Below are positions 21,743 through 36,686 of a DNA stretch of 64,000 bases, in pieces. Numbering within the stretch: position 1 is the first letter of the stretch; the number at the start of each line of letters is the position of its first letter. Source of the DNA: Halarcobacter sp. (GTDB taxonomy: Bacteria > Campylobacterota > Campylobacteria > Campylobacterales > Arcobacteraceae). The position numbers and the translations under genes are program-made. Where the stretch lies: NCBI GenBank assembly GCA_030145305.1, contig JAQYVX010000008.1, positions 62,001 through 126,000 on the forward strand. The letters run 5' to 3'. The notes below the pieces were generated by a model. That model was not told where the DNA came from. It saw nothing but the letters and a program-made list of their open reading frames with translations, and did not search any database.

Positions 21743-22993
21743 TTAAATCTTTATACCATTATCAAATATAATTTTATCTCTACCTTCTTTTTTAGCTTGA
21801 TATACTAATTCATCAGCATTTTTTCTTGTCTCATAATAATCTTTATATTTGTCTCTAAATGCAATACCTGCACTAAAACTTACATGTATTCTCTCGTTAT
21901 TATAAATAAAATTATTAGTTTTAATAATTCGTTTTAACCTATTTACATAAGTAATTATCTCATTTTCATTTTTATAATTTATTAATGTGACAAACTCTTC
22001 TCCCCCATACCTACATACAATATCTTCTTGCCTAGTTAATTTCTTTAAAATAGATGCAAAAGTTTTTAAAATGGTATCCCCACAAGCATGCCCATGAGTA
22101 TCATTTATTTTTTTAAAATGATCAATATCTATAAACATTAATGCATAATTTGAACTAAAAAAAGCATATTTTTTTTCAATTTTTTCAACTTCTTCTTTAT
22201 AGGCTCTTCTATTTAATATATTTGTTAAGAAATCAATTGATTTTTCTTCTTTTGCAGTTGAAAGTTCATTTCGTAGTTTTTCTATTGTTTCATTTAATTC
22301 TTCAAAATTTGATTTATGATGATCTAAAAGGAGATAATTCTTTTGTAAAGTATTCTCAATATTAAAAATAGTGCTTATTAATTTTGATTGTAACATTCCT
22401 AATTCTCGAAATGAAGAATCAGATATATTTAATTCGTTTAATTCATTTTTGATTTTATTAACTTCTTTTGTTGAATTAGAACTCTCAATAAGAGATTTTT
22501 CAAAATATTTTTCCATAAGATTAGTTATTTTTATTATGTCATTAGTTTTTTCTCTTATTACAATTCTATCAGCATCTATTCTTTTTCTTGTAATACATTG
22601 TAGTTTTCTATGTGTGTCTTTTTCTACAATTGTTTTTGGGTTTAATAAGAGATTTTTAATAAAAACTTCATTTTCTTGATTTTTAGTAAAATCTATTGAT
22701 GGAGATAAAACATCATGTAAAACAATTATTAATTCTTTTAAATCCTCAAGAGGAACTCTTTTAGATAAAATCTTTGCAATATCATTAAAACTTTCCAAAT
22801 TTGGAGAAAACCTAATCTCATCTTCGGTTAAAGTATTTTTTATCTCATTAAATTCTTCTAACTCTTTTATCTTTATTTTAGAAAATTCAGAATGCTTTTT
22901 AAATTCTTTAAAATAGTTTTCAGGAGTTATTTCAAGTTTATTGTCTCTTAGTGTCGTTAAGACATCTTTAGTTATTTTTTTAAGGGAGTCCAA
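21743..22993 (-). CDS. Diguanylate cyclase with uncharacterised helical N-terminus
   Basis: A 416-residue cytoplasmic protein. The C-terminal GGDEF domain has the active motif GGEEF in VCRYGGEEFVTLI and an intact product-inhibition site RxxD (RQED) five residues before it, so it should make c-di-GMP and be feedback inhibited. The DFLTNILNRRAYKEE and MFIDIDHFKKINDTHGH stretches are the usual start of the domain. The first 240 residues are helical with no recognisable sensor; a similar layout is common in Campylobacterota. The 275-base gap to phnF holds the phn control region. Confidence 0.9.
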   Translation of the reverse strand: MDSLKKITKDVLTTLRDNKLEITPENYFKEFKKHSEFSKIKIKELEEFNEIKNTLTEDEIRFSPNLESFNDIAKILSKRVPLEDLKELIIVLHDVLSPSIDFTKNQENEVFIKNLLLNPKTIVEKDTHRKLQCITRKRIDADRIVIREKTNDIIKITNLMEKYFEKSLIESSNSTKEVNKIKNELNELNISDSSFRELGMLQSKLISTIFNIENTLQKNYLLLDHHKSNFEELNETIEKLRNELSTAKEEKSIDFLTNILNRRAYKEEVEKIEKKYAFFSSNYALMFIDIDHFKKINDTHGHACGDTILKTFASILKKLTRQEDIVCRYGGEEFVTLINYKNENEIITYVNRLKRIIKTNNFIYNNERIHVSFSAGIAFRDKYKDYYETRKNADELVYQAKKEGRDKIIFDNGIKI

Positions 22994-23268: not shown

Positions 23269-23991
23269 TTGAAAAATTCTACTAAACCAATGTATATAAA
23301 ACTTTATGAAAATATTTTAGAAAATATTGAAAATAAAATATATACCCATTGTCAAAAACTACCTTCTGAGAATGATTTTGCAAAAGATTATAAAGTAAAC
23401 CGTCATACTGTAAGACAAGCATTAAGTTTATTAAAAGATGAAGGTATTATTTATACAAAAAGAGGGAAAGGGAATTTTCTTACTAATATAAAAGTTCCTT
23501 ATTCTATTTCTGATAAAAGTTCATATTCTTCTAAAATTCTTGATTTGGGTTATGAGCCTAAAACAAAACTTTTAAGTGCTGATATTATTGAAGCTAAAGG
23601 TGATGTTGCACAAAATCTAAAACTAAGCAATAAATTAAAAGTAATAGAACTTAAACTCTTAAGATATGCAAATGATTTACCAATATCAGTTTCTTATTCT
23701 TATTTTGATGCCTTTATTTATAGAGATATTATCAAATATTTAGACTGTGAACCCTTTTCTCTTTATAAGATTTTACAAAAGTGTTATCCCCATTTAGAAG
23801 TAATAAAAGTATCTACCGTATTTGAATCTATTTCATCAACAAAACAAATAAGTGAGCTTTTGATGATGCCTTCAAATTCCCCAATTTTAAGTGCTTGTAC
23901 CATATCAAAAGATCAAAATGAAAATTTAGTTGAGTATGGAACTTCTTATTTTAGAGGTGATACTTGCAAAATAAAAGTAAATCTAATTTAA
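23269..23991 (+). CDS. phnF: GntR/HutC-family regulator PhnF of the C-P lyase operon
   Basis: A 240-residue regulator with an N-terminal GntR winged helix (KLPSENDFAKDYKVNRHTVR and onward, about residues 10-75) and a C-terminal UTRA ligand domain. The start is TTG, chosen because AAGGAGG lies eight bases before it; the first ATG is seven codons later and has no suitable site. First gene of the phosphonate operon; by position and by the two identical operators in front of it, it should repress its own operon until a phosphonate or related ligand is bound. Confidence 0.9.
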   Translation: MKNSTKPMYIKLYENILENIENKIYTHCQKLPSENDFAKDYKVNRHTVRQALSLLKDEGIIYTKRGKGNFLTNIKVPYSISDKSSYSSKILDLGYEPKTKLLSADIIEAKGDVAQNLKLSNKLKVIELKLLRYANDLPISVSYSYFDAFIYRDIIKYLDCEPFSLYKILQKCYPHLEVIKVSTVFESISSTKQISELLMMPSNSPILSACTISKDQNENLVEYGTSYFRGDTCKIKVNLI

Positions 23992-24006
23992 CTAGGAGAA
24001 TGTAAA

Positions 24007-24735
24007 TTGATAAAAATGAAGAATCTAACTTTAGGTTATAAAAAAGAAGTGATTTTAAAAGATATAAATTTAAAAGTAAAAGAAGGCGAATTTATAGGAA
24101 TTATTGGTCCAAGTGGAGCAGGAAAATCTACCCTTTTAATGTCAATAACTGGCGGAATAAAAGTTTTTGATGGAAAGTTTGAAGTTTTAGATTTTGATTT
24201 AAATAGAATCAAAAAAAAGAATTTGATTAAATTAAGAGAGCAAATAGGTGTTATTTTTCAAGGATATAACCTAGTTGATAGAATTAGTGTTTTAGACAAT
24301 GTAGTAAGTGGGATGTTAAAAGATATTCCATTATCTAGGGCAATTATAAAATTATATGTAGATAAGGAGTTGAAGAAAGCAAAAGAGTACATGGATATTG
24401 TTGATATTACAAAGTATTCGTTAAAAAGGTGTGATGAACTTTCGGGAGGTCAAAGGCAAAGAGTTGCAATTGCTCGAGCATTAGCCGCTGAACCAAAGAT
24501 TATCTTAGCAGATGAACCAGTATCAGCACTTGATCCTAAAAGTGCAAAAAAAGTAATGGAGATTCTTAAAAAAGTAAATAAAACTTATGGTGTAACTGTT
24601 ATTGCAAATCTACATCATTTGGAATATGCAAAAGAGTATTGTGACCGTGTAATTGGTGTTAATGATGGAACAATTGTTTTTGATGACAAAAGTGAAAAAT
24701 TAACTGAAAAGTTAGTAGAAAATATTTATAAATAG
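24007..24735 (+). CDS. phnC: Phosphonate ABC transporter ATPase PhnC
   Basis: A 242-residue ABC ATPase that energises PhnE. Walker A is GPSGAGKST (residues 34-42), the signature LSGGQRQRVA and Walker B ILADEPVSALD are intact. Like other PhnC proteins it has the GYNLVDRISVLDNVVSG stretch after the Q-loop. The likely start is TTG at 24007, eight bases after GGAG; the ATG nine bases further on is the alternative and is too far from that site. It follows phnF by 15 bases. Confidence 0.93.
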   Translation: MIKMKNLTLGYKKEVILKDINLKVKEGEFIGIIGPSGAGKSTLLMSITGGIKVFDGKFEVLDFDLNRIKKKNLIKLREQIGVIFQGYNLVDRISVLDNVVSGMLKDIPLSRAIIKLYVDKELKKAKEYMDIVDITKYSLKRCDELSGGQRQRVAIARALAAEPKIILADEPVSALDPKSAKKVMEILKKVNKTYGVTVIANLHHLEYAKEYCDRVIGVNDGTIVFDDKSEKLTEKLVENIYK

Positions 24736-24744
24736 GAAATAAAA

Positions 24745-25608
24745 ATGAAATTAGTAAAAAAACTTACACTTGCTACCTTGGCTTTAGGTCTTACAACTTC
24801 ACTCATGGCTCAAGAAAAATGGCCTGAAAAAATTACTTTTGGTGTTATTCCAGTTGCTGGTTCAACTTCTATGAAAGAAAACTTTGGAGCTTTAACAAAC
24901 TATTTATCAAAACAATTAGGTATTAAAGTTGAATTACAATTAGCAGGTGATTATACAGGTGTAATAACAGGGATGCAACATAAACATATTGACGTTGCAT
25001 ATTTAGGACCAAAATCTTATGTAGAAGCACATAGAAGAGCAAATGCAGAAGCTTTAGTAGTTGAAGTTGATGGAGAATCAGGGTTACCAGGATACAATGG
25101 AACTATTATTACAAAAAAAGGTTCAGGACTTAAAACAATTGCTGATTTAAAAGGCAAAACTTGGGCCTTTACTTCATCACAATCAACTTCAGGAACCTTA
25201 GTACCAACAGTAATGTTTTCAAAAGCTGGAATTAATCCTAAAGAATATTTTTCAAGAGTAGTATATTCAGGTGGTCATGAAGCTTCAATCTTAACTGTAA
25301 AAGCTGGAAAAGTTGATGCCGCTTCTACAAATAACTTGGATTTTAATAGAGGATTAGGAAAACATTGGAACAAAGATGATTTCAATATTATTTGGAAGTC
25401 TGACTTAATTCCAGGTGCTCCAATGGCGGCACGTGCAGATTTACCAACATCTTTAAAAATGGCATTAAAAGGTGCATTCTTATCATATAACGATCCAGAA
25501 GGTTTAGCAAAACTTAAAAATAAAGGTTTTATTAAAGTTGATGATTCAAACTATGATAGCGTTAGAGATTTAATAGAATTAAAAAAACAATTAAAAAATA
25601 AATTATAA
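24745..25608 (+). CDS. phnD: Periplasmic phosphonate-binding protein PhnD
   Basis: A 287-residue periplasmic binding protein with a signal peptide cut after LTTSLMA. The family motifs FGVIPVAGSTSM and DVAYLGPKSYVEAH form the phosphonate pocket, and SQSTSGTLVPTVMF is the conserved hinge-side loop. It delivers phosphonates such as 2-aminoethylphosphonate or methylphosphonate to PhnE; the substrate range cannot be read from sequence. A strong hairpin follows it, probably keeping its level above that of later genes. Confidence 0.93.
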   Translation: MKLVKKLTLATLALGLTTSLMAQEKWPEKITFGVIPVAGSTSMKENFGALTNYLSKQLGIKVELQLAGDYTGVITGMQHKHIDVAYLGPKSYVEAHRRANAEALVVEVDGESGLPGYNGTIITKKGSGLKTIADLKGKTWAFTSSQSTSGTLVPTVMFSKAGINPKEYFSRVVYSGGHEASILTVKAGKVDAASTNNLDFNRGLGKHWNKDDFNIIWKSDLIPGAPMAARADLPTSLKMALKGAFLSYNDPEGLAKLKNKGFIKVDDSNYDSVRDLIELKKQLKNKL

Positions 25609-25615
25609 AAATCAG

Positions 25616-25646
25616 GATAAAAGAGAAGAAAAACTTCTCTTTTATC
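25616..25646 (+). terminator. Intercistronic hairpin between phnD and phnE
   Basis: A perfect 13-base-pair stem (GATAAAAGAGAAG / CTTCTCTTTTATC) with an AAAAA loop. No continuous T-run follows, and phnE starts 14 bases later with its own ribosome binding site. It is better read as an attenuator or mRNA 3'-end stabiliser than as a full stop. Confidence 0.65.
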
Positions 25647-25659
25647 AAAGGAAAATATT

Positions 25660-26517
25660 ATGAACATAAATGAACTTAAAAAAGAAAGCAATCCCTTTTC
25701 TATAAGTAAATCAATAGTAATAATCATATTTATTCTGATAGTTGTAAAAAGTTGGAATGATACAGAAATGAGTTTTTCTTCTTTACTTGATGGCGGAAAA
25801 TTTATGCAAGAGTATATTATTGGAAATCCAGATATTCAAGGAAGTGGTTTTTTCCCGCCAAATTTAAATAGTGCAGATTTAAAAGATTATGCCTTAGCAA
25901 TGTTAGAAACAATTCAAATGGCAGTAATTGCACTTATCTTATCAATAATAGTTGCAGTTCCATTATCATATATGTGTTCAAAAAATATCTTAGATATTTT
26001 AATCCCAGGAAAAACTCCCTTACCTCTATTATCTAAAAAAGTGATATATGGAAGTGCTACTTTACTAGCAAATATTTTTCGCTCAATTAATGAAATTATT
26101 TGGGCATTAATTTTTGTATCGGCAGTTGGTCTTGGACCAATGGCAGGTATTTTAGCCTTAGGCGTTCATACAGCAGGAGTATTGTGTAAGTTATTAAGTG
26201 AAGGGAATGAGGCAATTGACCCAGGACCAGTAGAAGCGCTTACAACAACAGGCGCAGGATTTATAAAAATACTTATTTATGCTGTAATTCCTCAAACAAT
26301 GCCTCATTTTATTTCAATGGCATTATATAGGTTTGAGTCAGATGTAAGAAGTGCTTCAATCTTAGGTTTTGTAGGTGCGGGTGGAATTGGTTTTTATTTA
26401 TTCGACAAAATGAGAGCTTTTGAAAATAGTGATGTATGTACGATTATTATAGTAATTGTTATTACCGTTTGGGTTTTAGACAAAATAAGTTCAGTAATTA
26501 GAAGAAGGTTTATATAA
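25660..26517 (+). CDS. phnE: Phosphonate ABC transporter permease PhnE
   Basis: A 285-residue inner membrane permease with about six hydrophobic segments. The MetI-like coupling motif appears as EGNEAIDPGPVEALTTTGAG, and the C-terminal SILGFVGAGGIGFYLFD is characteristic of PhnE. It forms the membrane channel with PhnC and PhnD. The gene ends directly at the start of phnG (no spacer). Confidence 0.93.
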   Translation: MNINELKKESNPFSISKSIVIIIFILIVVKSWNDTEMSFSSLLDGGKFMQEYIIGNPDIQGSGFFPPNLNSADLKDYALAMLETIQMAVIALILSIIVAVPLSYMCSKNILDILIPGKTPLPLLSKKVIYGSATLLANIFRSINEIIWALIFVSAVGLGPMAGILALGVHTAGVLCKLLSEGNEAIDPGPVEALTTTGAGFIKILIYAVIPQTMPHFISMALYRFESDVRSASILGFVGAGGIGFYLFDKMRAFENSDVCTIIIVIVITVWVLDKISSVIRRRFI

Positions 26518-26931
26518 ATGAAAAGAGAAAGTATTAATCATTTAGCTCAATTAGTTCAAATTGATAAATTAAAAAGGCTATATGAAAAAATTGATAAAAA
26601 TTTTAAAGTAAAAGTTTTAACATCTCCTACAGAACAAACACTTTTAGTTCCAGTAAAAGATCCAATTACAGGAGGAAACTTTTATTGTGGAGAAGTATTA
26701 GTAACTTCTACAATTGTAGAAGTGCAAGAAGAAAAAGGTTGGTCTATGGTAATGGATAGTAATGAAGAACTGTCTTTATATGTGGCTGTATTAGATGCTT
26801 GTTTTGAGAAAAAGATTTATAAAGATGAAATCAAAGATTTATTAAAAGAAGCAAAAAAGAGTGAAGAGAAAAAGAATAAAAAAATAAATCAAAAAGTGAA
26901 CTCAACTAGAGTCTCTTTTGATTTATTATAA
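26518..26931 (+). CDS. phnG: C-P lyase core subunit PhnG
   Basis: A 137-residue subunit of the PhnGHIJ core complex that, with PhnI, attaches the phosphonate to the ribose of ATP (releasing adenine). Conserved PhnG features are PTEQTLLVPVKDPITGGNFY and GEVLVTSTIVEV, followed by GWSMVMDSN. The C-terminal 25 residues are a lysine-rich extension not essential to the family. Start codon immediately follows the phnE stop, with AAGAAGG as ribosome binding site. Confidence 0.92.
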   Translation: MKRESINHLAQLVQIDKLKRLYEKIDKNFKVKVLTSPTEQTLLVPVKDPITGGNFYCGEVLVTSTIVEVQEEKGWSMVMDSNEELSLYVAVLDACFEKKIYKDEIKDLLKEAKKSEEKKNKKINQKVNSTRVSFDLL

Positions 26932-26942
26932 GTAGGTGAATT

Positions 26943-27479
26943 ATGAAAACAGTTGATATAGAAAAAATAAATAGAAATAACTTTAAATCAATTATGAATG
27001 TTTTGTCAATGCCTGGAAAAGTAGAAAAAATTGAACCTTTATTCAAATCTACATTTTTAGCTCTTGCAAATACTTTACTTTATTCAGAAGTTTCATACTT
27101 TTATGATGGAAGTGAAGAATTTGGTTTAATTGATGCAATTACAAATGCCCAAAAAGAAGATGAAGAACAAGCTGATTATATTTTTTGTGATGAAATAAAT
27201 GAGTTTTTATTTAATAAAGCAAAAGTTGGAACATCAAAAGACCCTGAATTTTCAGGAACATTGATTTTTAAATGCAATGATTTCAAGGGCTTAAATGTAA
27301 GACTAAGTGGACCTGGAATCAATGGCTCAAAAGATATAACTTTGCCTGTAGATAGATCATTTATTAAGTTTTTTAATGAAAAAAACTCATCTTTTCCTTT
27401 AGGAAATGAAGTTTTCTTTTTAAGTGAAAAAGGAAAAGTTATAGGCTTATCAAGAACTACGAAAGTAGAGGTATTGTAA
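26943..27479 (+). CDS. phnH: C-P lyase core subunit PhnH
   Basis: A 178-residue PLP-transferase-like subunit (without PLP chemistry) of the PhnGHIJ core. It opens with FKSIMNVLSMPGKV, the conserved PhnH start, and has LSGPGINGS and the late FPLGNEVFFLS typical of the family. It is slightly shorter than E. coli PhnH (194). It ends immediately before phnI. Confidence 0.9.
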   Translation: MKTVDIEKINRNNFKSIMNVLSMPGKVEKIEPLFKSTFLALANTLLYSEVSYFYDGSEEFGLIDAITNAQKEDEEQADYIFCDEINEFLFNKAKVGTSKDPEFSGTLIFKCNDFKGLNVRLSGPGINGSKDITLPVDRSFIKFFNEKNSSFPLGNEVFFLSEKGKVIGLSRTTKVEVL

Positions 27480-28550
27480 ATGGCTTATTATGCAATCAAA
27501 GGTGGAGAAGAAGCGATTAAAAACTCCTTGAAGTATTATGAAGATTTGACAAAAGAAGCTCAAAAAATTGACGATGATGATTTAATAAATGGATTAACAT
27601 TTTCAATTGATAAAGTTATGAGTGAGGGTTCTTTATATAGTAAAAAACTAGCAGCTGTGGCTATTAAAAGAAGTGCAGGGGATTTATTAAATGCCTCATT
27701 TTTTTTAAGAGCACATAGATCCTCTTGTCAAAGAATCGGAATTGCAAAAGAGCTTGATGTTAATACTATGAGATTAAGAAGAAGAATTTCTTCGGCTTTT
27801 AAAGATATTGAAGGTGGTCAAGTTTTAGGTGCTTCAAATGATTATGAAATAAAACTTTTAGTTGATTTAAAAAATGAAAAAGTAAATATTGAAGATTATT
27901 CAAATGAAGACAATATTATCAAATCAGCACTAACTCCTTTGAGAGAAGATAATTTAATCAAAGTATTAAAAAAAGAAACTGAAGCTTGGGATATTACAAG
28001 AGCTTTTCCAAATGCTCCATATCCAAGAAGTGCAGTTCACCAAGTTATGAGTAGAGGGGAAAGTGGTTCACTTCTAGGTTTTGCTTATACTTCAATGAGA
28101 GGTTATGGTGATGTTCACCCCACAATTGGGGATTTAAGAATTGGGGAACTTGATATTGAGTTTATTCATCCTTTTACAAAAAAAGATGTAAAAATTGGTT
28201 CAATTGAAGCCACTGCTGTTGAAAGTGCTGGAACATTTAATAAAGATGAAGATGGACAAACTAGACTTACAACTGGTTTTGGATTTTGTTTTGGAAAAAA
28301 TGAAACAAAAGCCATTTCTATTTCAATAATTGATTTATCTCTTTACAATGATTCTTATACAGTAGGAACAGAACAAATTGTAGCAAGTGATTTTGAGATG
28401 ATGATGCACCATGTAGATGGAATAGAGTCTTTTGGTTTTGCAAATCATTATAAATTACCTCACTATGTAACTTTTCAAGCTGATTATCAAGTATTTAAAA
28501 GTGCAAGTAAATATGTAAAAGAACAAGAGCAAAAGGAAGAAAGAAAATGA
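27480..28550 (+). CDS. phnI: C-P lyase core subunit PhnI (nucleosidase component)
   Basis: A 356-residue protein, the catalytic component that transfers alkylphosphonate onto ribose of MgATP in the first lyase step. MAYYAIKGGEEAI is the highly conserved start; RGYGDVHPTIGDLRIGEL and GFGFCFGKNETKAISI are further core motifs. The C-terminal charged tail (KEQEQKEERK) overlaps the phnJ start by four bases. Confidence 0.95.
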   Translation: MAYYAIKGGEEAIKNSLKYYEDLTKEAQKIDDDDLINGLTFSIDKVMSEGSLYSKKLAAVAIKRSAGDLLNASFFLRAHRSSCQRIGIAKELDVNTMRLRRRISSAFKDIEGGQVLGASNDYEIKLLVDLKNEKVNIEDYSNEDNIIKSALTPLREDNLIKVLKKETEAWDITRAFPNAPYPRSAVHQVMSRGESGSLLGFAYTSMRGYGDVHPTIGDLRIGELDIEFIHPFTKKDVKIGSIEATAVESAGTFNKDEDGQTRLTTGFGFCFGKNETKAISISIIDLSLYNDSYTVGTEQIVASDFEMMMHHVDGIESFGFANHYKLPHYVTFQADYQVFKSASKYVKEQEQKEERK

Positions 28551-29371
28551 GATATGCATTTTTAGATGAAGAAGCTAAAAAAGAGATTAGAAGATCAATT
28601 TTAAAAGCTATTGCTATTCCTGGATATATTGTATCTTTTGCTTCCAGAGAAATGCCAGTAGCACGAGGTTGGGGAACAGGTGGATTACAAGTTACCCTTG
28701 CAATCATAAATGAAAAAGACAATTTAAAAGTAATAGATCAAGGTTGTGATGGTAGTGTTAATGCTGTAAATATTAGAAATTTTATTTCATCTGTTACAAA
28801 TGTAAAAACAACTACTAAAACAAAAGAAGCCACAATTATTCAAACAAGACATAGAGTTCCAGAAATTGATTTACAAGAAGGTCAAACTTTAGTTTTTCAA
28901 GTTCCTATGCCTGATATTTTAGAAACAGTAGAACCAAATACAGCAAAACAAAAAATCATGCACGCAAATGCTGATTATTCAAAGCTTTGGGTCTTATTAT
29001 ATGAAGACACTTCAATGTTTGGAGATAGTAGGATTTCAAATAGATACCCTGTAATTGTACATAATCGTTATGCAATGGATCCAAGTCCAATTCCAAAATA
29101 TGATACTCCAAAACTAAACAATAGCAAAGCTTTACAATTGTTTGGAGCAGGGAGAGAAAAAAAGATTTATGCAATTCCTCCATACACAGATGTAAAACCT
29201 TTGAAATTTGAAGATAAAGAGTTTAAAGTAGAAAATTTTGAAGGACAAACTTGTCAAAGATGTGGAAGTTCAAATTCATTTTTAGACGAAGTTTATGATG
29301 ATAATGGCGAAGTAAAATATTATTGTAATGATACAGATTATTGTGATGAAAATATTGGAGAGAATAAATGA
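28547..29371 (+). CDS. phnJ: Carbon-phosphorus lyase PhnJ (radical SAM)
   Basis: A 274-residue non-canonical radical SAM enzyme that breaks the carbon-phosphorus bond of ribosyl-alkylphosphonate. The iron-sulfur and radical cysteines are near the C-terminus: C236, C239, C260 and C266, spaced C-x2-C-x20-C-x5-C, one residue shorter between the second and third than in E. coli PhnJ. EMPVARGWGTGGLQ near residues 26-40 is invariant in the family. The start overlaps phnI and the stop overlaps phnK, as in most phn operons. Confidence 0.96.
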   Translation: MRYAFLDEEAKKEIRRSILKAIAIPGYIVSFASREMPVARGWGTGGLQVTLAIINEKDNLKVIDQGCDGSVNAVNIRNFISSVTNVKTTTKTKEATIIQTRHRVPEIDLQEGQTLVFQVPMPDILETVEPNTAKQKIMHANADYSKLWVLLYEDTSMFGDSRISNRYPVIVHNRYAMDPSPIPKYDTPKLNNSKALQLFGAGREKKIYAIPPYTDVKPLKFEDKEFKVENFEGQTCQRCGSSNSFLDEVYDDNGEVKYYCNDTDYCDENIGENK

Positions 29372-30204
29372 TATTAGATATAAAAAATCTTTCAAAGGTT
29401 TTTGGTAAGTTTTGTCCTAAATGTTTAGAAACAACAGGAGCTTCATATAATAGTTCTATTTGCCCAACGTGTAAAAGTGTAGTAGGGGTAAATAATATAA
29501 ATTTAACTTTAAGTCAAGGCGAGGTTTTAGGAATTGTTGGGGAAAGTGGAAGTGGAAAATCAACACTTTTACAGCTTATTTACCAAGATCAAAAAGCTAG
29601 TTTGGGTGAAATTTTTGTAAAAGATTTTATAGGTAAAGATGGTGAAAAAAAGAATATTTTGGATGCAGATTTAAATGAACTATCAAGTTTAAGAAATACT
29701 TTGATGTCAATGATTTATCAAAACCCTAGACTTGGTTTAAATTATAACTTTTCAGCGGGTGGAAATATTGCAGAAAAGATTATAGGAAGTGGGAATAAAA
29801 AATATGAAGATATTAGAAATAGGGCTTTATATTTTTTAGATAAAACTGAAATTCCAACATCTAGAATTGATGATTATCCTGAGTTCTTCTCAGGTGGACA
29901 ACAACAAAGAATTCAAATTTCAAAAGCCTTATCTAGTAATCCAAAGATTTTATTACTTGATGAGCCAACAACTGGGTTAGACCTTTCTGTTCAAGCTAAG
30001 ATTCTTGATTTAATCAAAGAATTACAACATGAAATTGGTTTTGCAATGGTAGTAGTTTCACATGATTTAGGAGTTATTAAACACCTAACCGACATTACAG
30101 TTGTTATGAAAAATGGACAAATTGTTGAAAATGGTTTAACCGACCAAATTTTGGAAGACCCACAACATCCGTATACACAACTGCTTGTGTCTTCAATTTT
30201 ATAA
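29368..30204 (+). CDS. phnK: C-P lyase ABC-type subunit PhnK with a four-cysteine insert
   Basis: A 278-residue ABC ATPase that binds the PhnGHIJ core. Walker A is GESGSGKST, the signature is FSGGQQQRIQ and Walker B is ILLLDEPTTGLD. Between the first strand and the usual VNNINL strand it has an extra ~20 residues with C16, C19, C32 and C35 (CPKC and CPTC), forming a probable zinc-ribbon or small metal site that E. coli PhnK lacks. It overlaps phnJ by four bases. The insert makes the protein about 25 residues longer than E. coli PhnK. Confidence 0.92.
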   Translation: MILDIKNLSKVFGKFCPKCLETTGASYNSSICPTCKSVVGVNNINLTLSQGEVLGIVGESGSGKSTLLQLIYQDQKASLGEIFVKDFIGKDGEKKNILDADLNELSSLRNTLMSMIYQNPRLGLNYNFSAGGNIAEKIIGSGNKKYEDIRNRALYFLDKTEIPTSRIDDYPEFFSGGQQQRIQISKALSSNPKILLLDEPTTGLDLSVQAKILDLIKELQHEIGFAMVVVSHDLGVIKHLTDITVVMKNGQIVENGLTDQILEDPQHPYTQLLVSSIL

Positions 30205-30213
30205 GGAAATAGC

Positions 30214-30903
30214 ATGATTAGATTAGAAGTAAAAGATTTAAATAAAACTTTTAATGTTCATACCAGAGGTAGTATTGAAGTTAAAGGTTTTGAAAATATT
30301 AATTTAAGTGTAAAACAAGGTGAGTTTTTATCTCTTTTTGGACCATCAGGAGCAGGAAAATCTTCAATTTTAAAGACATTATTTAGAACATATACTACAA
30401 CATCTGGAAGTATTATTTTTCATAAAGATAATGGAAATACTATTGATATTTCAAACGCTAGTGAAAGCGAGATACTAAATCTTAGAAAAAATGAAATAGG
30501 ATATGTTTCACAATTTTTGCAAATCTTACCAAGAATAAGCGCAGTTGATGTAGTAAGTGAACAGCTTATTTTCAAAGGTGAAAGTGAAGATGTATCAAGA
30601 ATCAAAGCAAAAGAGATGTTAGATTATTTATCAATTAGAGAAGAGTTATTTGATTTATCTCCTCTAACTTTTAGTGGAGGAGAGCAACAAAGAGTAAATA
30701 TAGCAAAAGGAATAATTGCTCCAAAATCTTTACTTTTACTTGATGAACCAACAGCATCATTAGATAAAACAAATACAATGAAAGTTGTTGAGAAGTTGAA
30801 AATTCTAAAAACTCAAGGTGTTGCTATGGTTGGTATTTTTCATGATTTAGAAGCCATGAATATAATTAGTGATTCTATTCACGAACTTAAAAGAGTAGGT
30901 TAA
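30214..30903 (+). CDS. phnL: C-P lyase ABC-type subunit PhnL
   Basis: A 229-residue ABC ATPase that associates with PhnK on the C-P lyase core. Walker A GPSGAGKSS, signature FSGGEQQRVN and Walker B LLLDEPTASLD are intact; the start EVKDLNKTFNVHTRGSIEVK is typical of PhnL. It lies nine bases after phnK and one base before phnM. Confidence 0.93.
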   Translation: MIRLEVKDLNKTFNVHTRGSIEVKGFENINLSVKQGEFLSLFGPSGAGKSSILKTLFRTYTTTSGSIIFHKDNGNTIDISNASESEILNLRKNEIGYVSQFLQILPRISAVDVVSEQLIFKGESEDVSRIKAKEMLDYLSIREELFDLSPLTFSGGEQQRVNIAKGIIAPKSLLLLDEPTASLDKTNTMKVVEKLKILKTQGVAMVGIFHDLEAMNIISDSIHELKRVG

Positions 30904-30904
30904 A

Positions 30905-32044
30905 ATGATAACAATATTAAGAAGTAAAAACGTATTAGTAAATGAAAAGTTTATTGAAGCTGATATTGTAATAAAAGGTGAGTTTATTCAAAGTATTGAT
31001 ACTTATGGTTCAAATGAAGTTGCTGTGGATTTAGGCTTTAAAAAGATTGTTCCAGGAATTGTAGATTTACACTCAGATGCAATTGAAAAAGAGATAGAAC
31101 CAAGACATGGAGCAACTTTCCCTGTTGAACATGCAATTGCTGAACTTGATAAAAAATTATCAATGGCTGGAATTACAACGATGTTTCATGCTATTGGATT
31201 TGAAGATAATCCAAAGAAAAAAAGAAGTGTTTATTTAGCAAGACAACAAATAGAAGAAATTTATAATGCAAATAAAAAACACTTAGGTGTTGATAACTTA
31301 ATCCATGCAAGATTTGAGTTAAGTTCTAGTGATGCGATTGAAGCTATTAAAGAAGTTATTGATTTAGGGATGGTAAAACTTTTATCTATTATGGATCATT
31401 CTCCAGGACAAGGACAATTTAAAACATTAGAAACTTTTAAGACATATTATTCAAATTATTATGGATTAAATGATGATGAAGTTCAAGATGTTGTAGATAA
31501 AAAAATGAACAAAGATGAAGAGAAAATTAATAATTTGATCTCTCATGCAAAAGAAAATAAGATTACTTTATTAAGTCATGATGATGATTGCATTGAAAAA
31601 CTTGATGGTCTTTTAGATTTGGGTGTTCAAATATCAGAATTTCCCCTTGATTTAGAAGTAGCAAAATATGCAGTTTCCAAAGGAATTGCTACAGGAATGG
31701 GCGCACCAAATATTGTAAGAGGTGGTAGTCAAAGTGGAAATATAGCAGCAATTGATTTAGTACGTGAAGATGTTTGTAAATACCTTTGTTCAGATTATCA
31801 TCCAACTTCAATGTTGCAAGCAGTTTACAAAATGAAAGAAGATACAAATCTACCACTAGAAATTGGTTTTTCAATGATTACTTCAACACCTGCAAAATAC
31901 GCAAACTTAACAGATAGAGGGGAATTAAAAGCTGGGAAACTTGCTGATATTTTAGTAATTGATGATTCTCATATTCCAAAAGTAGTATTAACTTTAAAAG
32001 ATGGAGAATCAATTTATAACGGGATTAGAGGCTTTAAACTATAA
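30905..32044 (+). CDS. phnM: Alpha-D-ribose 1-methylphosphonate 5-triphosphate diphosphatase PhnM
   Basis: A 379-residue amidohydrolase-fold enzyme that removes pyrophosphate from the 5-triphosphate intermediate to give the substrate of PhnJ. Metal-site motifs are visible in VDLHSDAIEKEIEPRHG, in LLSHDDD, and in CSDYHPTSML. It belongs to the main lyase pathway and follows phnL directly. A 22-codon open frame separates it from phnN. Confidence 0.94.
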   Translation: MITILRSKNVLVNEKFIEADIVIKGEFIQSIDTYGSNEVAVDLGFKKIVPGIVDLHSDAIEKEIEPRHGATFPVEHAIAELDKKLSMAGITTMFHAIGFEDNPKKKRSVYLARQQIEEIYNANKKHLGVDNLIHARFELSSSDAIEAIKEVIDLGMVKLLSIMDHSPGQGQFKTLETFKTYYSNYYGLNDDEVQDVVDKKMNKDEEKINNLISHAKENKITLLSHDDDCIEKLDGLLDLGVQISEFPLDLEVAKYAVSKGIATGMGAPNIVRGGSQSGNIAAIDLVREDVCKYLCSDYHPTSMLQAVYKMKEDTNLPLEIGFSMITSTPAKYANLTDRGELKAGKLADILVIDDSHIPKVVLTLKDGESIYNGIRGFKL

Positions 32045-32062
32045 AAATTAAAAGGAATTAAA

Positions 32063-32131
32063 ATGATTACAGTATTTAGAAGTATTTTACATTTAGAGGT
32101 TAAATATCATAATAAGAATAGAAGACTTTAA
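32063..32131 (+). CDS. Possible 22-residue peptide between phnM and phnN
   Basis: An ATG-initiated frame of 22 codons with a good ribosome binding site (AAAGGAATTAAA before the ATG) and its stop two bases before the AAGGAAA site of phnN. The predicted peptide is basic and not hydrophobic enough for a membrane helix. It could be a translational-coupling leader for phnN, a small regulator, or a remnant. It is too short to recognise. Confidence 0.35.
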   Translation: MITVFRSILHLEVKYHNKNRRL

Positions 32132-32145
32132 TTAAGGAAATTAGC

Positions 32146-32691
32146 TTGACAAAGAGAAAAATGAAAACTAAAATAATACTTATTGTAGGCCCTAGTGGAG
32201 TAGGAAAAGATACTCTTTTACGATATGCAAAAGAAGAGTTTGGCAAGAAGTTCAATTTTGTTAAAAGATATATTACTAGAAAGCCAGATTTAAATGAGGA
32301 TAATTACTATATTGATGATTATGCTTTTGAGATATTAAGACATAATGGTTATTTTGCTTCATTTTGGAATGCACATGAAAATCAGTATGGAATAGCAAAA
32401 AGATTTATTAATCCAGGAATTAATATAATATCTATATCAAGATCAAAAATAAAAGATTTTGAAAAGCAATATGATAATGTTTATACAATTAATATTACTA
32501 TTCCAAAAGAGTTATTAAAGCATAGGCTTCTTTTTCGTGGAAGAGAAAGTAAAGCTCAAATAGAAGAGAGATTATCTAGAAACTATGAAAAGATAAAAGC
32601 TAAAAAGTTAATTGATTTTGACAATTCTAGTTCTTTAGAAGAATCAAAAATAAGATTTAAGAAACTACTTAAAGAAATAAAAAATGCCTAG
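32146..32691 (+). CDS. phnN: Ribose 1,5-bisphosphate phosphokinase PhnN
   Basis: A 181-residue guanylate-kinase-like enzyme that phosphorylates ribose 1,5-bisphosphate to PRPP, returning the ribose carrier to metabolism. The P-loop GPSGVGKDT is at residues 15-23. RYITRKPDLNEDNYYI and FWNAHENQYGI are the family counterparts of the substrate lid. The start is probably TTG at 32146, five bases after AAGGAAA; the ATG 15 bases later is the alternative. Confidence 0.92.
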   Translation: MTKRKMKTKIILIVGPSGVGKDTLLRYAKEEFGKKFNFVKRYITRKPDLNEDNYYIDDYAFEILRHNGYFASFWNAHENQYGIAKRFINPGINIISISRSKIKDFEKQYDNVYTINITIPKELLKHRLLFRGRESKAQIEERLSRNYEKIKAKKLIDFDNSSSLEESKIRFKKLLKEIKNA

Positions 32692-32718
32692 AACAATTTT
32701 TTTTAAATGGAGAGAAAA

Positions 32719-33456
32719 ATGAAACTTAAATTTTTAGGAAGTGCTGATAGTGCAGGAATTCCCGTACATAATTGCAAATGCTCAATTTGCAATAAATATA
32801 GATTAAAAGAATTAAAAAATCTTTCAACTTGTGCTTATTTGGAAATTGAAGATAAAACAATTCTTCTTGATGCTGGAATAGAAAATATTTCAAATATCTT
32901 TGATACCAAAAAAATTGATGCTATTTTTCTTACACATTTTCATGCAGACCATTGCTTAGGACTACTTAGACTTAGGCATTCAAATGATAAAATCAAATGT
33001 TTCCATCCTCATGATAAAAAGGGCTTTGCAGATTTATTTAAGCATGAACATTCTATTTCATATAAAAAAATAGATGCTTTTGATACAAAGATTATTGGTT
33101 CAGTAAAGTTTACAAGTATTCCTTTGGAACATTCAAAAAATACATATGGATATTTAATTGAATATAAAAATATTAAAATTGCATATTTAACTGATTGTTC
33201 AGGCATTCCTAATGCAAGTCTGCGTTTCTTAAAATCAGTTAGTTTGGATTATGCTTTTATTGATGCTTGTTATGATGAAAGAAAGAAAAAAGGAAATCAT
33301 CTAAACTATTTACAAGCAACAAAGATTTTAAATAAGTTAGATGTTAACAGTGCTTTTTTAATGCATATTTCACATTCAACTCAAGAGTTTATTGAAAATA
33401 ATGATATTTCATTAAAGTATAGATATGTAAAAAATGATGAGGAATTCATATTTTAA
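32719..33456 (+). CDS. phnP: Phosphoribosyl 1,2-cyclic phosphate phosphodiesterase PhnP
   Basis: A 245-residue metallo-beta-lactamase-fold enzyme that opens the cyclic ribose phosphate made by PhnJ. The metal motif is THFHADH (H73, H75, D77, H78), and the N-terminal cysteines C19, C21 and C24 (NCKCSIC) match the structural zinc site of E. coli PhnP. I chose the ATG at 32719, preceded by GGAGAG; an ATG 12 bases upstream lies before that site. Last gene of the phn operon. Confidence 0.93.
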   Translation: MKLKFLGSADSAGIPVHNCKCSICNKYRLKELKNLSTCAYLEIEDKTILLDAGIENISNIFDTKKIDAIFLTHFHADHCLGLLRLRHSNDKIKCFHPHDKKGFADLFKHEHSISYKKIDAFDTKIIGSVKFTSIPLEHSKNTYGYLIEYKNIKIAYLTDCSGIPNASLRFLKSVSLDYAFIDACYDERKKKGNHLNYLQATKILNKLDVNSAFLMHISHSTQEFIENNDISLKYRYVKNDEEFIF

Positions 33457-33990: not shown

Positions 33991-34114
33991 GAATAAATTA
34001 AAAAATATTTTAATAATCAAAACTACCCACTACTTTAGATTATGATAAAATATCAAGTAAAAAGAAGTGCACTATTTTTATACAAATATAGTGTCTTAAT
34101 TAAAGGTTTAGTAA

Positions 34115-34137
34115 GTGAAAATGAGAGTCTATTATGA
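34115..34137 (+). repeat. Displaced ybgC 5' end, copy A (attachment-site-like)
   Basis: Start codon GTG and the first codons read MKMRVYYD, matching the real ybgC start at 36318 in 18 of 23 bases and copy B in 20 of 23; the shared core is TGAGArTyTATTATGA. A ribosome binding site (AAAGG) precedes it. Similarity stops right after the core and no thioesterase sequence follows, so this is a separated 5' fragment, marking the outer end of a probable insertion. Confidence 0.65.
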
Positions 34138-34254
34138 CTTTATTTACTTTCATAGGAATACTTTAATAAAGGGTTTTTTAGGCTTTCTGGTCTCAAGAAT
34201 TGATGAAAATGTTGCATTTTTGAATATTTTTTGGCACAAATCTAGCACACAATT

Positions 34255-35304
34255 TTATAAGGTATTTAAAATATGTTTCATTAGAGATGAGCCTAAAATA
34301 GCAATTGCTAATATTTCCATTTTCTCATTTTTTGTCAGTTCTCTATTATCTTTTAATTTTCCTCGATGTGCAATGTCATTTCTAAGTTTTCTTAACAAAT
34401 TCATTTTAGTTATTAGCGTCTTGTCAATTATAGTTAAATTATTTGCTTTTGAAATTAATGTTATTAAGTGACTTAATTGATGACCATATGTTGCCCCAGT
34501 AACTAAAAAGTCTTCAACACTTTTTTTGCCTTTTGAACTATCATTATTTTTAACAAACTCTTTATAACATATTTGATTACAAATTAATTCTAAACTCCTA
34601 TTTGCATTCATAATCAATTCATAGGGTTTATTGTCTATAAAATTGTCTATGGCATCAAGTAGGTTATTATCTAAAGTATTATTATCATCATATAAAAGCC
34701 ATTGCACCATTATTGATAATCCATTCTTATCATTTATTTTTTCTTGATTATTTAAATTCGCAGGGAAAAAACTAAATTTATTATCTCTTGCCTCTTGTAC
34801 AAATCTTGTGTTATTTGACATTAATTTTAAAGGGAATAGATGACAAGATGGAGTTAAATGAATATCTAATATCTTTGCATTAGCTGGAATACCCATATCT
34901 TCAAAATATATATCATTAACTTGATTTTCTTTCATTGAAACTGTGCCAATATTTGTTTTAGAACCTAAAGTTAAATATACATTATTAAAGGCATTCATAT
35001 TAATTATCTGAAGTAATTGTTTTAAAGTGTTTTCTTGTTCAATTAAAATACTGTTTGATTTACAAGTTGAACAATTTATATTATTTCTAAGACTATAAAT
35101 GTCATGAAAAATATCTGCTCCAAATATATTTTTAGGGGTTGATTGATAGTTTCTACATTTAGGACATACATAAGAAGAATTTGGAAACATATCTGTTAAT
35201 TCATTTGGGTAATTTAAATCAAATACTAGTCTTCTGTTGTTGAGGATTTTTTGATTTTTTATATCAATTTCTTGTTTTTTATCTTCATTGATTTTTATTT
35301 TCAT
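34255..35304 (-). CDS. HEPN/DUF4145-like protein with N-terminal zinc ribbon
   Basis: A 349-residue soluble protein. Near the N-terminus are two CxxC pairs, C47/C50 and C78/C81, suggesting a zinc ribbon. The middle is not recognised. The C-terminal helical region resembles DUF4145/HEPN-type domains: a conserved-looking LRKLRNDIAHRG carries R318-N-D-I-A-H323, the R-x4-H motif of HEPN ribonucleases. Proteins of this type often occur in abortive infection or toxin-antitoxin systems. The gene is alone between repeated ybgC 5' ends and has its own AAGGGA ribosome binding site. RNase activity and a defence role are inferences. Confidence 0.6.
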   Translation of the reverse strand: MKIKINEDKKQEIDIKNQKILNNRRLVFDLNYPNELTDMFPNSSYVCPKCRNYQSTPKNIFGADIFHDIYSLRNNINCSTCKSNSILIEQENTLKQLLQIINMNAFNNVYLTLGSKTNIGTVSMKENQVNDIYFEDMGIPANAKILDIHLTPSCHLFPLKLMSNNTRFVQEARDNKFSFFPANLNNQEKINDKNGLSIMVQWLLYDDNNTLDNNLLDAIDNFIDNKPYELIMNANRSLELICNQICYKEFVKNNDSSKGKKSVEDFLVTGATYGHQLSHLITLISKANNLTIIDKTLITKMNLLRKLRNDIAHRGKLKDNRELTKNEKMEILAIAILGSSLMKHILNTL

Positions 35305-35698
35305 ATTAATATATCCCTTTTAGATATTTACACTATTTTACACTATTTATAGTATCAATCAAATAAAATAAATTTCAGTAGTTTAATTCTATTACTTAGA
35401 TATCATTTATGAAAATAAAAGTCCGTATCTACTATTTTGATACGAAAAATGGCACATATTTGGCAGAAAATTTATCAATTTTAATAAAAATAGGGATTGT
35501 AACACCTATACATAAGGGATTTTAAGCGTGGAAATGAGAATTTATTATGAGAATAACTTTTTTCTATAAATTTCTGAAAAAGTAGTTTTTATGATATTTT
35601 ACTATTTCAGACTATTAATTATTTTACTAATATAAGTGATGATTTGGGCATTAATTAAACAGGAATAGTTTTAGATAAAGTCGTTCTACCTTTTAGTA
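35305..35698. other. Gene-free 394-base region with repeat and promoter-like signals
   Basis: No convincing gene. It holds the promoter side of the HEPN-like gene, with a tandem TTTACACTAT / TTTACACTAT repeat just upstream; an inverted repeat CGTATC / GATACG at about 35423-35443; the TGGCACA motif at 35450; and copy B of the ybgC start at 35528, whose frame closes after 13 codons. Confidence 0.55.
35528..35550 (+). repeat. Displaced ybgC 5' end, copy B
   Basis: GTG start and codons MEMRIYYE; the 16 bases TGAGAATTTATTATGA (35535-35550) are identical to those in ybgC at 36325-36340. An AAGGG ribosome binding site lies before it. The frame ends after 13 codons. It marks the junction between two probable stacked insertions. 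Confidence 0.7.
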
Positions 35699-36175
35699 CT
35701 ATAAACTTCTTGGTTTTGATACATAAAAAAATAATTCATTTTTAATGAAATCAATATTTTGATTAGCTTTTTTTATATTAATATTAATATTTTGTCTATT
35801 ACAAAAAAATGAATCTAATGGTTTGTACTTTAGTATTAAAACTCTTTTTCCCTTTCCGTAAATAGTATTATTTGATGATGAACCTTTTTTAAGAATTTTC
35901 CCATCTTGTTTAATTTCAAAATCTATTTTAAAAATAGTTTCATGTGTAGTTATATATTTGGGTTTAAATATAATTCCTATTTCTCTATCATAATATTTAT
36001 TACATTCAATATCTATATTAAGAGTATATTCACTTTTGTTTTTATCGAGTTTCTTTTTATAATCAAAAGGAACTGTATTATTAAGTATTTGATTAATATC
36101 ATATATTGATATAACCAAAAGAAATACAAAATATGAAATTATACTAATTATGAATACTTTATATACTTTTTTCAT
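35699..36175 (-). CDS. Unrecognised membrane-anchored protein, 158 residues
   Basis: An N-terminal membrane helix (VFIISIISYFVFLLVISIYD, residues about 7-27) is followed by a beta-rich extracytoplasmic domain with alternating polar and hydrophobic residues, resembling small immunoglobulin-like or immunity-type domains. Two cysteines (in IECNKYYD and FFCNRQN) could form a disulfide. I recognise no family. It is the only gene of the second insertion before ybgC. Confidence 0.55.
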   Translation of the reverse strand: MKKVYKVFIISIISYFVFLLVISIYDINQILNNTVPFDYKKKLDKNKSEYTLNIDIECNKYYDREIGIIFKPKYITTHETIFKIDFEIKQDGKILKKGSSSNNTIYGKGKRVLILKYKPLDSFFCNRQNININIKKANQNIDFIKNELFFYVSKPRSL

Positions 36176-36317
36176 AAACTTTCTTTTTGATTATATTATC
36201 AAAAAAATTATAAAATACCTTTATCATTAAATTATAATCATATAAAGACAATCACATTAGTATATTTAATATAAAACCAGATATTATTCAACAATCGATT
36301 TAAAGAGGCTTATAGTA

Positions 36318-36340
36318 ATGAAGTTGAGAATTTATTATGA
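36318..36340 (+). repeat. Intact ybgC 5' end, copy C of the repeat
   Basis: First 23 bases of ybgC, matching copy A in 18 and copy B in 19 positions, with TGAGAATTTATTATGA identical to copy B. This is the only copy that continues into the gene, so it marks the probable integration target. Confidence 0.7.
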
Positions 36341-36686
36341 AGATACAGATATTGGTGGGGTAGTTTATTATGCAAATTATTTAAAATTTTGTGAGAGAGC
36401 ACGAAGTAATATTTTTTTTGAAAAGGGATTATCTCCTCATCAAGAGAAGGAATTTTTTGTTGTAAAAAAAGTTGAAGCAGATTATATAAAATCTGCAACA
36501 TTTGGAGATATTTTAGAAGTAACTACTAAACTTGTAAGTAAAAAAAATGTATCACTTGAAGTTTATCATGAGATTTTTAGAGAAAAAGAGTTAATATTTA
36601 CTGCAAAAATCAAACTTGCGTACTTAAAAAACTATAAACCATCAAAAATTCCAAAAGAAATTTCAGAAATTTTTAATATATTATAG
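36318..36686 (+). CDS. ybgC: Hotdog-fold acyl-CoA thioesterase YbgC
   Basis: A 122-residue hotdog thioesterase of the Tol-Pal-associated YbgC/FadM family. YYEDTDIGGVVYYANYLKF contains the catalytic aspartate; FCERAR follows as usual. It hydrolyses short acyl-CoA or acyl-ACP and is often linked to phospholipid metabolism. It is full length, and its first eight codons are the sequence found twice more upstream. The start ATG has AAAGAGG ten bases before it. Confidence 0.92.
   Translation: MKLRIYYEDTDIGGVVYYANYLKFCERARSNIFFEKGLSPHQEKEFFVVKKVEADYIKSATFGDILEVTTKLVSKKNVSLEVYHEIFREKELIFTAKIKLAYLKNYKPSKIPKEISEIFNIL

Follow-up and report, generated by a model that had tools for sequence, protein, structure and literature searches.

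Why do the first codons of one gene occur three times in succession when only the last copy leads into a complete gene? The gene is a ybgC-type acyl-CoA thioesterase gene of a Halarcobacter genome (G000; family Arcobacteraceae, order Campylobacterales), and it lies in the 64,000-nucleotide stretch that was analyzed (the window, G000:C75:62001-126000; positions below are those of the window). Starts of ybgC stand at 34115 (GTG), 35528 (GTG), and 36318 (ATG), just where an earlier note on this DNA had placed them. The 16-mer TGAGAATTTATTATGA occurs without mismatch at 35535 and 36325 and with two mismatches at 34122, and each start is preceded at like spacing by a ribosome-binding site (RBS): AAAGG at 34102-34106, AAGGGA at 35514-35519, and AAAGAGG at 36302-36308. 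Only from 36318 does the thioesterase reading frame continue, giving a protein of 122 residues (36318-36686, + strand) that matches the TIGR00051 YbgC/FadM family (83.3 bits against a cut-off of 68.7, E = 1.6e-23) and 4HBT, and that scores under the cut-off of the tol-pal ybgC equivalog. The ybgC start is thus duplicated at the boundaries of two segments, S1 (about 34130-35545) and S2 (about 35545-36335), each of which carries one gene and, by the list of open reading frames (ORFs) and an integrase search, no recombinase, again in agreement with the earlier note. With a probability of about 0.9, we consider S1 and S2 to be two integrase-less integrative cassettes that were stacked at the start of ybgC by site-specific recombination.

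The proposed mechanism would draw on a tyrosine integrase from another element, which would recombine the attP attachment (att) site of a cassette with attB, the first codons of ybgC. At every insertion, the old leader and first codons would stay at the far end and ybgC would gain a new leader, RBS, and first codons, so that the gene would stay whole. Read from its sequence, the target gene does appear whole behind a leader and a start copy. Copy 1 (34115-34137, + strand, GTG plus codons 2-8) would then be attL of S1, copy 2 (35528-35550, + strand) the att site common to S1 and S2, and attR would lie within the first codons of the intact thioesterase gene. In relatives, the same site is occupied by full elements with an integrase, a small helix-turn-helix (HTH)/excisionase-like gene, and sometimes a rolling-circle replication protein (Rep), filamentous prophages among them, as well as elements since reduced to integrase fragments and cassettes like those of the window. 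The leader to the left of copy 1 (34074-34114, + strand, with the RBS AAAGG) is probably the older host leader. Together with the core (34074-34137) it resembles the ybgC 5′ regions of G007 (77% over 66 nt) and G020 (75% over 64 nt), and 34092-34137 resembles that of G004 (81% over 47 nt); all three relatives have a single start, as the insertion model asks. Because part of each match is core and the matches are short, this is moderate evidence.

Whether the repeat exceeds chance has a different answer for the window and for its relatives. The earlier note had made its reading depend on the repeats being more alike than chance in this AT-rich genome. In the window, the 16-mer with up to two mismatches is matched four times against 0.57 expected, a count that none of 100 shuffles reached, and one of the four is an unrelated match on the opposite strand. 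A looser pattern with three mismatches stays at chance level (34 matches against 27.5 expected). A 21-nt scan of up to 17 kb 5′ of ybgC, which covered 22 family genomes plus record L034 (the same contig as G137:C12), gave best chance matches of 15-17 of 21 positions in copy-less genomes, and the copies in the window score 16 and 17. Since the repeat in the window alone is weak and near chance, the weight rests on other genomes. Of the 95 family genomes in which ybgC was matched, 94 supplied the 5′ region of the gene (G113, whose match has no start, was excluded), and 90 loci were readable, the other four having been missed by the ybgC pattern. The survey pattern, a start codon plus a seven-residue motif, was composed after the copies had been seen. 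Across 1,043,000 bases 5′ of ybgC it found 12 extra ybgC starts in 9 of the 90 genomes (two each in G000, G003, and G013; one each in G010, G048, G118, G026, G054, and G043), all 12 on the ybgC strand and all 12 with a loosely defined RBS. The same pattern found no extra start on the opposite strand of the same 90 genomes, and ten rounds of Markov shuffling gave 0-2 matches each (mean 0.5). At least 1 kb of 5′ sequence was present at 84 of the 90 loci and at least 12 kb at 65; at the shorter ones, left copies may have escaped the survey. Chance matches in AT-rich DNA, which the loose pattern and the 21-nt scan would allow for the window by itself, are therefore rejected by the strand asymmetry and by the flanks shared across genomes; given also the RBS before every copy and the integrases at the site (below), the probability of this explanation is negligible. 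Relatives with a single ybgC start, which the note had named as something to look for, exist as well (e.g., G001 and G009). Outside the count of 12, G118 has a further copy of the ybgC core without a start codon (L092 2788), 594 bp to the left of its left copy. G058 has, at about L059 8273-8368 (G058:C1:428272-428367), an isolated piece of ybgC that spans 29-32 codons and exceeds the att core in length; the real ybgC of this genome is about 360 kb away in the same contig.

The place where the copies end bears on how they arose. Tandem duplications of ybgC that decayed down to the first codons would also leave ybgC starts with an RBS, which is what the copies are. However, copy and own ybgC are identical at nt +22 in all 12 cases and at nt +23 in 2 of 12, the identity dropping at +23 in ten copies and a few bases later in those of G118 and G026, and the sequence past the copies is conserved between genomes as the end of an element rather than as ybgC. 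Copies that stop at one point and then give way to shared non-ybgC sequence led us to reject decayed gene duplication, which we regard as very improbable. From nt 15 to 22, each copy equals its own ybgC throughout, bar one position that differs in both G003 copies, and at the silent site +20 the copy agrees with its own gene in 12 of 12 cases, compared with 58% for the genes of other genomes. We infer that strand exchange most likely takes place in codons 6-8 (TAYTAYGA).

If the cassettes have no recombinase, an integrase with the same target should be sought in relatives, as the earlier note advised, and a related tyrosine recombinase does adjoin ybgC in 6 of 104 family genomes. In G013, the element measures 7.5 kb from start to next copy. 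The gene of its tyrosine recombinase (384 residues; Phage_integrase, 1.9e-23) stops 44 bp short of ybgC, and the element also carries a small HTH-like gene without a family match, a Rep of the rolling-circle type (Phage_GPA, 5.9e-12), and the two genes of an Iet defence pair (IetA 1.2e-83, IetS 4.4e-48); no virion genes were recognized in it. The elements of G010 (12.9 kb) and G118 (13.5 kb) have int (integrase), HTH-like, and rep genes related to those of G013, and both encode Zot (4e-17 and 7.2e-18, respectively), with an M13 protein IV-like secretin in G118 (1.8e-42) and a weak coat protein match in G010 (4.7e-4, below the cut-off). By this gene content, the G010 and G118 elements are filamentous prophages (inoviruses). 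A DndC-like gene is also present in G010, as is a type II restriction pair in G118. A fourth element, in G026 (9.0 kb), has a TrbL/VirB6 gene (1e-12) and no recognized defence gene. These four are full elements with a left copy, and two of the four are inoviruses. G059 and G123 have an integrase at ybgC, with type I restriction genes and MzaC (5e-109) within about 13 kb on the 5′ side; their left copies were not found, so these genes may lie either inside the element or beyond its left end. Anti-phage-type genes accompany five of the six family integrase elements. Of 89 family loci, 8 more have a 3′ remnant of the integrase at a distance of 43-107 bp in front of ybgC, and a fragment also occurs inside the G048 segment. 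Two further observations concern these elements. To the left of the outermost copy in G013, a TIR-NLR gene (1.4e-233, L045 12086-14545) lies behind another integrase remnant, and the two are probably an older third element. An IMG/VR contig, L136, carries Zot-like, secretin-like, rep-like, HTH-like, and int genes and by eye is close kin of the G118 prophage; its inovirus integrase is 56% identical and terminates in a VPFFVPF repeat, like that of G043, and the contig ends just behind int.

The integrases at ybgC reach well beyond the family. Residues R221, R323, H349, and Y359, which we take to be catalytic, are kept in all six aligned integrases. Relatives at E ≤ 1e-40 occur in 72 of 398 order genomes, and an integrase adjoins ybgC in at least 14 of the 398, from five families. 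Among 18 genomes with a match of at least 44% identity, 17 were followed (G445 was excluded) and 12 of these have the integrase next to ybgC (G013, G063, G075, G164, G176, G223, G331, G344, G350, G383, G403, and G433); in G082 it lies 1.25 kb away. Weaker matches were followed in part, and among them G123 and G313 adjoin ybgC. In G403, two elements that each bear an integrase stand in tandem, separated by a copy of the ybgC start; at most order-level loci, no left copy was found within the stretch examined. On the integrase tree, in which G082 was labeled ybgC and the very long-branched G449 was included, use of ybgC is clustered (6 label changes against a shuffled mean of 11.5, with none of 500 shuffles as low). 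The start of ybgC is therefore an integration site in at least five Campylobacterales families. At the family level, its users are filamentous phages and elements near Iet, type I and type II restriction-modification, Mza, and DndC-like genes.

How do the segments of the window relate to these full elements? Inspection by eye revealed paired short direct repeats with a period of about 12 bp, located some 100-130 bp inside the left ends and some 45-90 bp before the right ends. The pairs are alike at both ends within an element and differ among elements (G010 has GGCACGATTTTAGGCAT at both ends, G026 GGGGACT, G043 TCCC, and a group that we call type A has TGGCAC), and in full elements the right pair sits in the last codons of int. 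Such a layout of paired repeats is expected of the arm sites of integrases, and we treat the pairs as putative arm-like sites. S1 has them inside both ends: TTTGGCACAAATCTAGCACAC on the left (34227-34250, + strand), in a like place in G013 and G054, and ATGGCACATATTTGGCAG on the right (35446-35468, + strand), in a three-way alignment of S1, G013, and G054. Beside the right site is a short inverted repeat, CGTATC..GATACG (35424-35444, + strand), in a stretch that is kept in G013 and, in part and without forming the inverted repeat, in G054. The right end of S1 (35469-35527, + strand), a leader with the RBS AAGGGA, matches the right end of the G013 segment. Overall, S1 and the second segment of G013 are 82% identical across 182 nt at the left end and 74% identical across 203 nt at the right end, and with the G054 segment they align at both ends as the type A ends. 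The type A segments of G013 and G054 also have no integrase, and one of these two genomes belongs to another genus. Searched with up to two mismatches in 104 genomes, the left arm site of S1 is exact only in S1, G013, and G054 and occurs with one or two mismatches at nine other places. Between these like ends the genes differ, which bears out the expectation in the earlier note that other genomes would hold different cargo between the same repeats: by pairwise comparison, neither the G054 protein nor the esterase-like protein of G013 is related to the S1 cargo, and the match between the G013 and G054 cargoes (E of 0.001 in a single comparison, over 69 residues) was not taken as kinship. At its left end, S2 resembles the integrase-bearing elements. 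Its left arm-like site, TTTGGGCATTAATTAAACAGG (35643-35663, + strand), has a second half unlike the first and aligns with paired sites in G003, G013, G048, and G010; the left ends of S2, G003, G013, G048, G010, and G118 align, and a G003 segment with S2-like ends carries a protein unrelated to the S2 cargo. Two candidates were set aside in this part of the work. An RIYY.DT-like stretch in the type A right ends, considered as a further ybgC copy, was kept as conserved sequence beside the arm site, and IMG/VR pattern scans for type A arm sites returned three contigs, of which L207 and the examined part of L209 look unrelated.

With their att sites kept and integration and transfer genes absent, S1 and S2 could instead be the decayed remains of complete integrase elements, that is, cis-mobilizable elements (CIMEs), in which case neither a cassette family nor mobilization in trans would be needed. 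We give this a substantial chance, a little short of even. Decay is seen nearby, in the integrase 3′ fragments before ybgC in eight genomes and within the G048 segment; the excerpts of a review (PMC5704250) give, as the usual route, the formation of a CIME and then accretion, and S2 has lost, or is without, a right arm site. S1, in contrast, has both arm-like sites, one complete gene, and no integrase fragment, and this layout is found again in G013 and G054, with other genes between the same ends, a recurrence hardly to be expected from independent decay. We therefore continue to favor integrase-less cassettes, for which we infer mobilization in trans.

Several results weigh against two stacked cassette insertions and deserve to be set out together. 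Between copies 1 and 2, the core differs at two positions. One genome per species was compared, and single-start sites were thus seen between species only. The leader of the intact gene, R1 (36268-36308, + strand, with the RBS AAAGAGG), is common to three G003 sites, G005, and G008, and in the last two it stands before ybgC without a left copy; either left copies were lost there or R1 is a host leader regained by recombination, so that R1 may be an old host leader instead of an element end. Neither S1 nor S2 contains an integrase gene or an integrase fragment, and S2 has a left half-site without a clear right arm site. No integrase with TGGCAC arms was found at ybgC, and the TGGCAC sites of G104 and G042 are near integrases elsewhere. 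Close integrases with no ybgC beside them occur in G051, G119, G209, and G449, and the tree, with its six label changes, does not support a single clade of ybgC-adjacent integrases. At E ≤ 1e-40, G000 has a single integrase, which is 36% identical and lies at G000:C75:42187-43224, about 19 kb to the left of the window and not at ybgC. With no integrase in the window and none close in G000, movement today is unsupported. Nevertheless, the central claim of the earlier note, two stacked insertions at the 5′ end of ybgC that renewed its leader, RBS, and start, is upheld by the single-start relatives, the other cargo, and the adjoining integrases.

The company of inoviruses raises the question of whether the cassettes are minimal satellites of filamentous phages, relying for Rep, Int, and virion on a helper inovirus with ybgC as its own target. 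Both boundaries were found for four full elements, and two of these are inoviruses; G013 pairs related rep, HTH-like, and int genes with a defence pair and no recognized virion genes; and the left end of S2 is common to inovirus elements (66% identical to that of G118 over 136 nt). No virion or Rep gene appears in S1 or S2 by ORF list, Pfam, or PADLOC, however, no replication origin or packaging signal was identified in them (signals that were weakly tested), and the arm type of S1 differs from the arms of the inovirus elements. A satellite nature is thus quite improbable. A related and also rather unlikely proposal is that type A one-gene cassettes, with their TGGCAC arm pairs and no recombinase, swap defence-like cargo between fixed ends and stack at ybgC, borrowing the integrase, and possibly the replication and virion functions, of ybgC-specific inoviruses. 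If it were true, a filamentous-phage satellite system would be building a defence array at one host gene while leaving that gene unbroken.

How new is such a locus? The earlier note knew of no described ybgC-targeting element, and this has to be corrected: the excerpts of PMC9239051 and PMC9174649 describe a bipartite symbiosis integrative and conjugative element (symICE) of Bradyrhizobium, the small element of which integrates at attBY in ybgC. It shares with the present case the use of ybgC as an attachment site and an integrase bordering the predicted att site, whereas it is a symbiosis ICE of Alphaproteobacteria, and the likeness is one of description, not of the ybgC end or the integrase sequence. 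The dusA elements (IMEVchUSA3 and others), as described in the excerpts of PMC8409611, are tyrosine-integrase-type islands in the 5′ end of a protein gene that supply a new promoter and N-terminus, so that the target, dusA, stays expressed; they differ in the target and in being SGI1-related Vibrio islands mobilized by IncC plasmids, and the window segments differ from them in having no int and a single gene each. SXT/R391 ICEs at prfC similarly have attB near the 5′ end of a protein gene and a tyrosine Int plus Xis, although by the excerpts of PMC2654960 they are large conjugative elements, likened here by description and not by sequence; the ybgC-type target and the lack of an integrase in S1 and S2 place the window outside that group. 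Closest in layout are CIMEs and tandem accretion, with att-flanked integrase-less segments stacked at one gene. According to the excerpts of PMC5704250, CIMEs are decayed ICEs or integrative and mobilizable elements, while in the present case the same ends are found again around a different single gene each time, and inoviruses are among the related full elements. Integrase-bearing inoviruses, in the excerpts of PMC6813254, are like those of G010 and G118 in having rep, Zot, and a tyrosine integrase, with a secretin in G118; the ybgC target and the Campylobacterales host set ours apart. In the excerpts available, the literature searched held no recognizable report of Campylobacterales ybgC elements, and the TIGER/Islander resource (PMC12424338) could hold such cases; for the Arcobacter butzleri genome, the excerpts of PMC2147049 mention no filamentous prophage; they report a prophage of the Mu-like kind along with three integrase islands, of which one lies at a tRNA. 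The phenomenon is therefore real, well explained, and known in principle. What is new is the lineage, the link to inoviruses, and the recurrence of a one-gene cassette whose cargo differs while its ends stay alike. The cassettes of the window suggest how single genes could stack at a conserved gene without a recombinase of their own. Because the att ends are short and fixed, more cargo genes can be found between ybgC starts, and the integrase that moves them is directly testable.

The cargo of each cassette is a single gene. The S1 gene (34255-35304, - strand) encodes a putative defence protein of 349 residues with a Cys-rich N-terminal part and, by eye, a C-terminal HEPN-like RNDIAH motif. 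PADLOC matches its residues 238-325 to CARF-HEPN (2.8e-4), and a DUF4145 match (0.017) is below the cut-off; we regard the product as probably a HEPN-type protein. No homologue at E ≤ 0.001 was found in the other 103 family genomes, and the only one among the other 397 order genomes is in G413, which is 63% identical and keeps RNDIAH. Single-sequence structure prediction reached a mean pLDDT (predicted local distance difference test) of only 34.3, and no solved-structure relative was found (best E 0.82). The S2 gene (35699-36175, - strand) encodes 158 residues with an N-terminal hydrophobic segment (by eye) and has no Pfam, PADLOC, or NCBIfam match. As side observations, the G413 homologue (L223 7826-9052) has a longer N-terminus and is flanked by other genes, in an examined stretch for which no integrase is listed, and the type A cargo of G054 (L117 10653-11705), which has no Pfam or PADLOC match, reads RNKYFGH, HEPN-like by eye.

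The surroundings of the locus can be described briefly, with gene names taken from the sequence by eye unless a family match is given. To the left of copy 1, a phosphonate (phn-like) cluster of about 10 kb (23269-33456) lies between the conserved GGDEF gene (21743-22993) and the cassettes. No ybgC start copy was seen at the left edge of the cluster; its phnM, phnN, and phnP-like genes were not found 5′ of ybgC in the compared loci, and its other genes have no counterpart there. On the 3′ side of ybgC, relatives largely keep a series of a GGDEF gene, an htpX-like gene, and an rmuC-like gene, although some are missing the GGDEF gene; the 5′ side of ybgC is variable.

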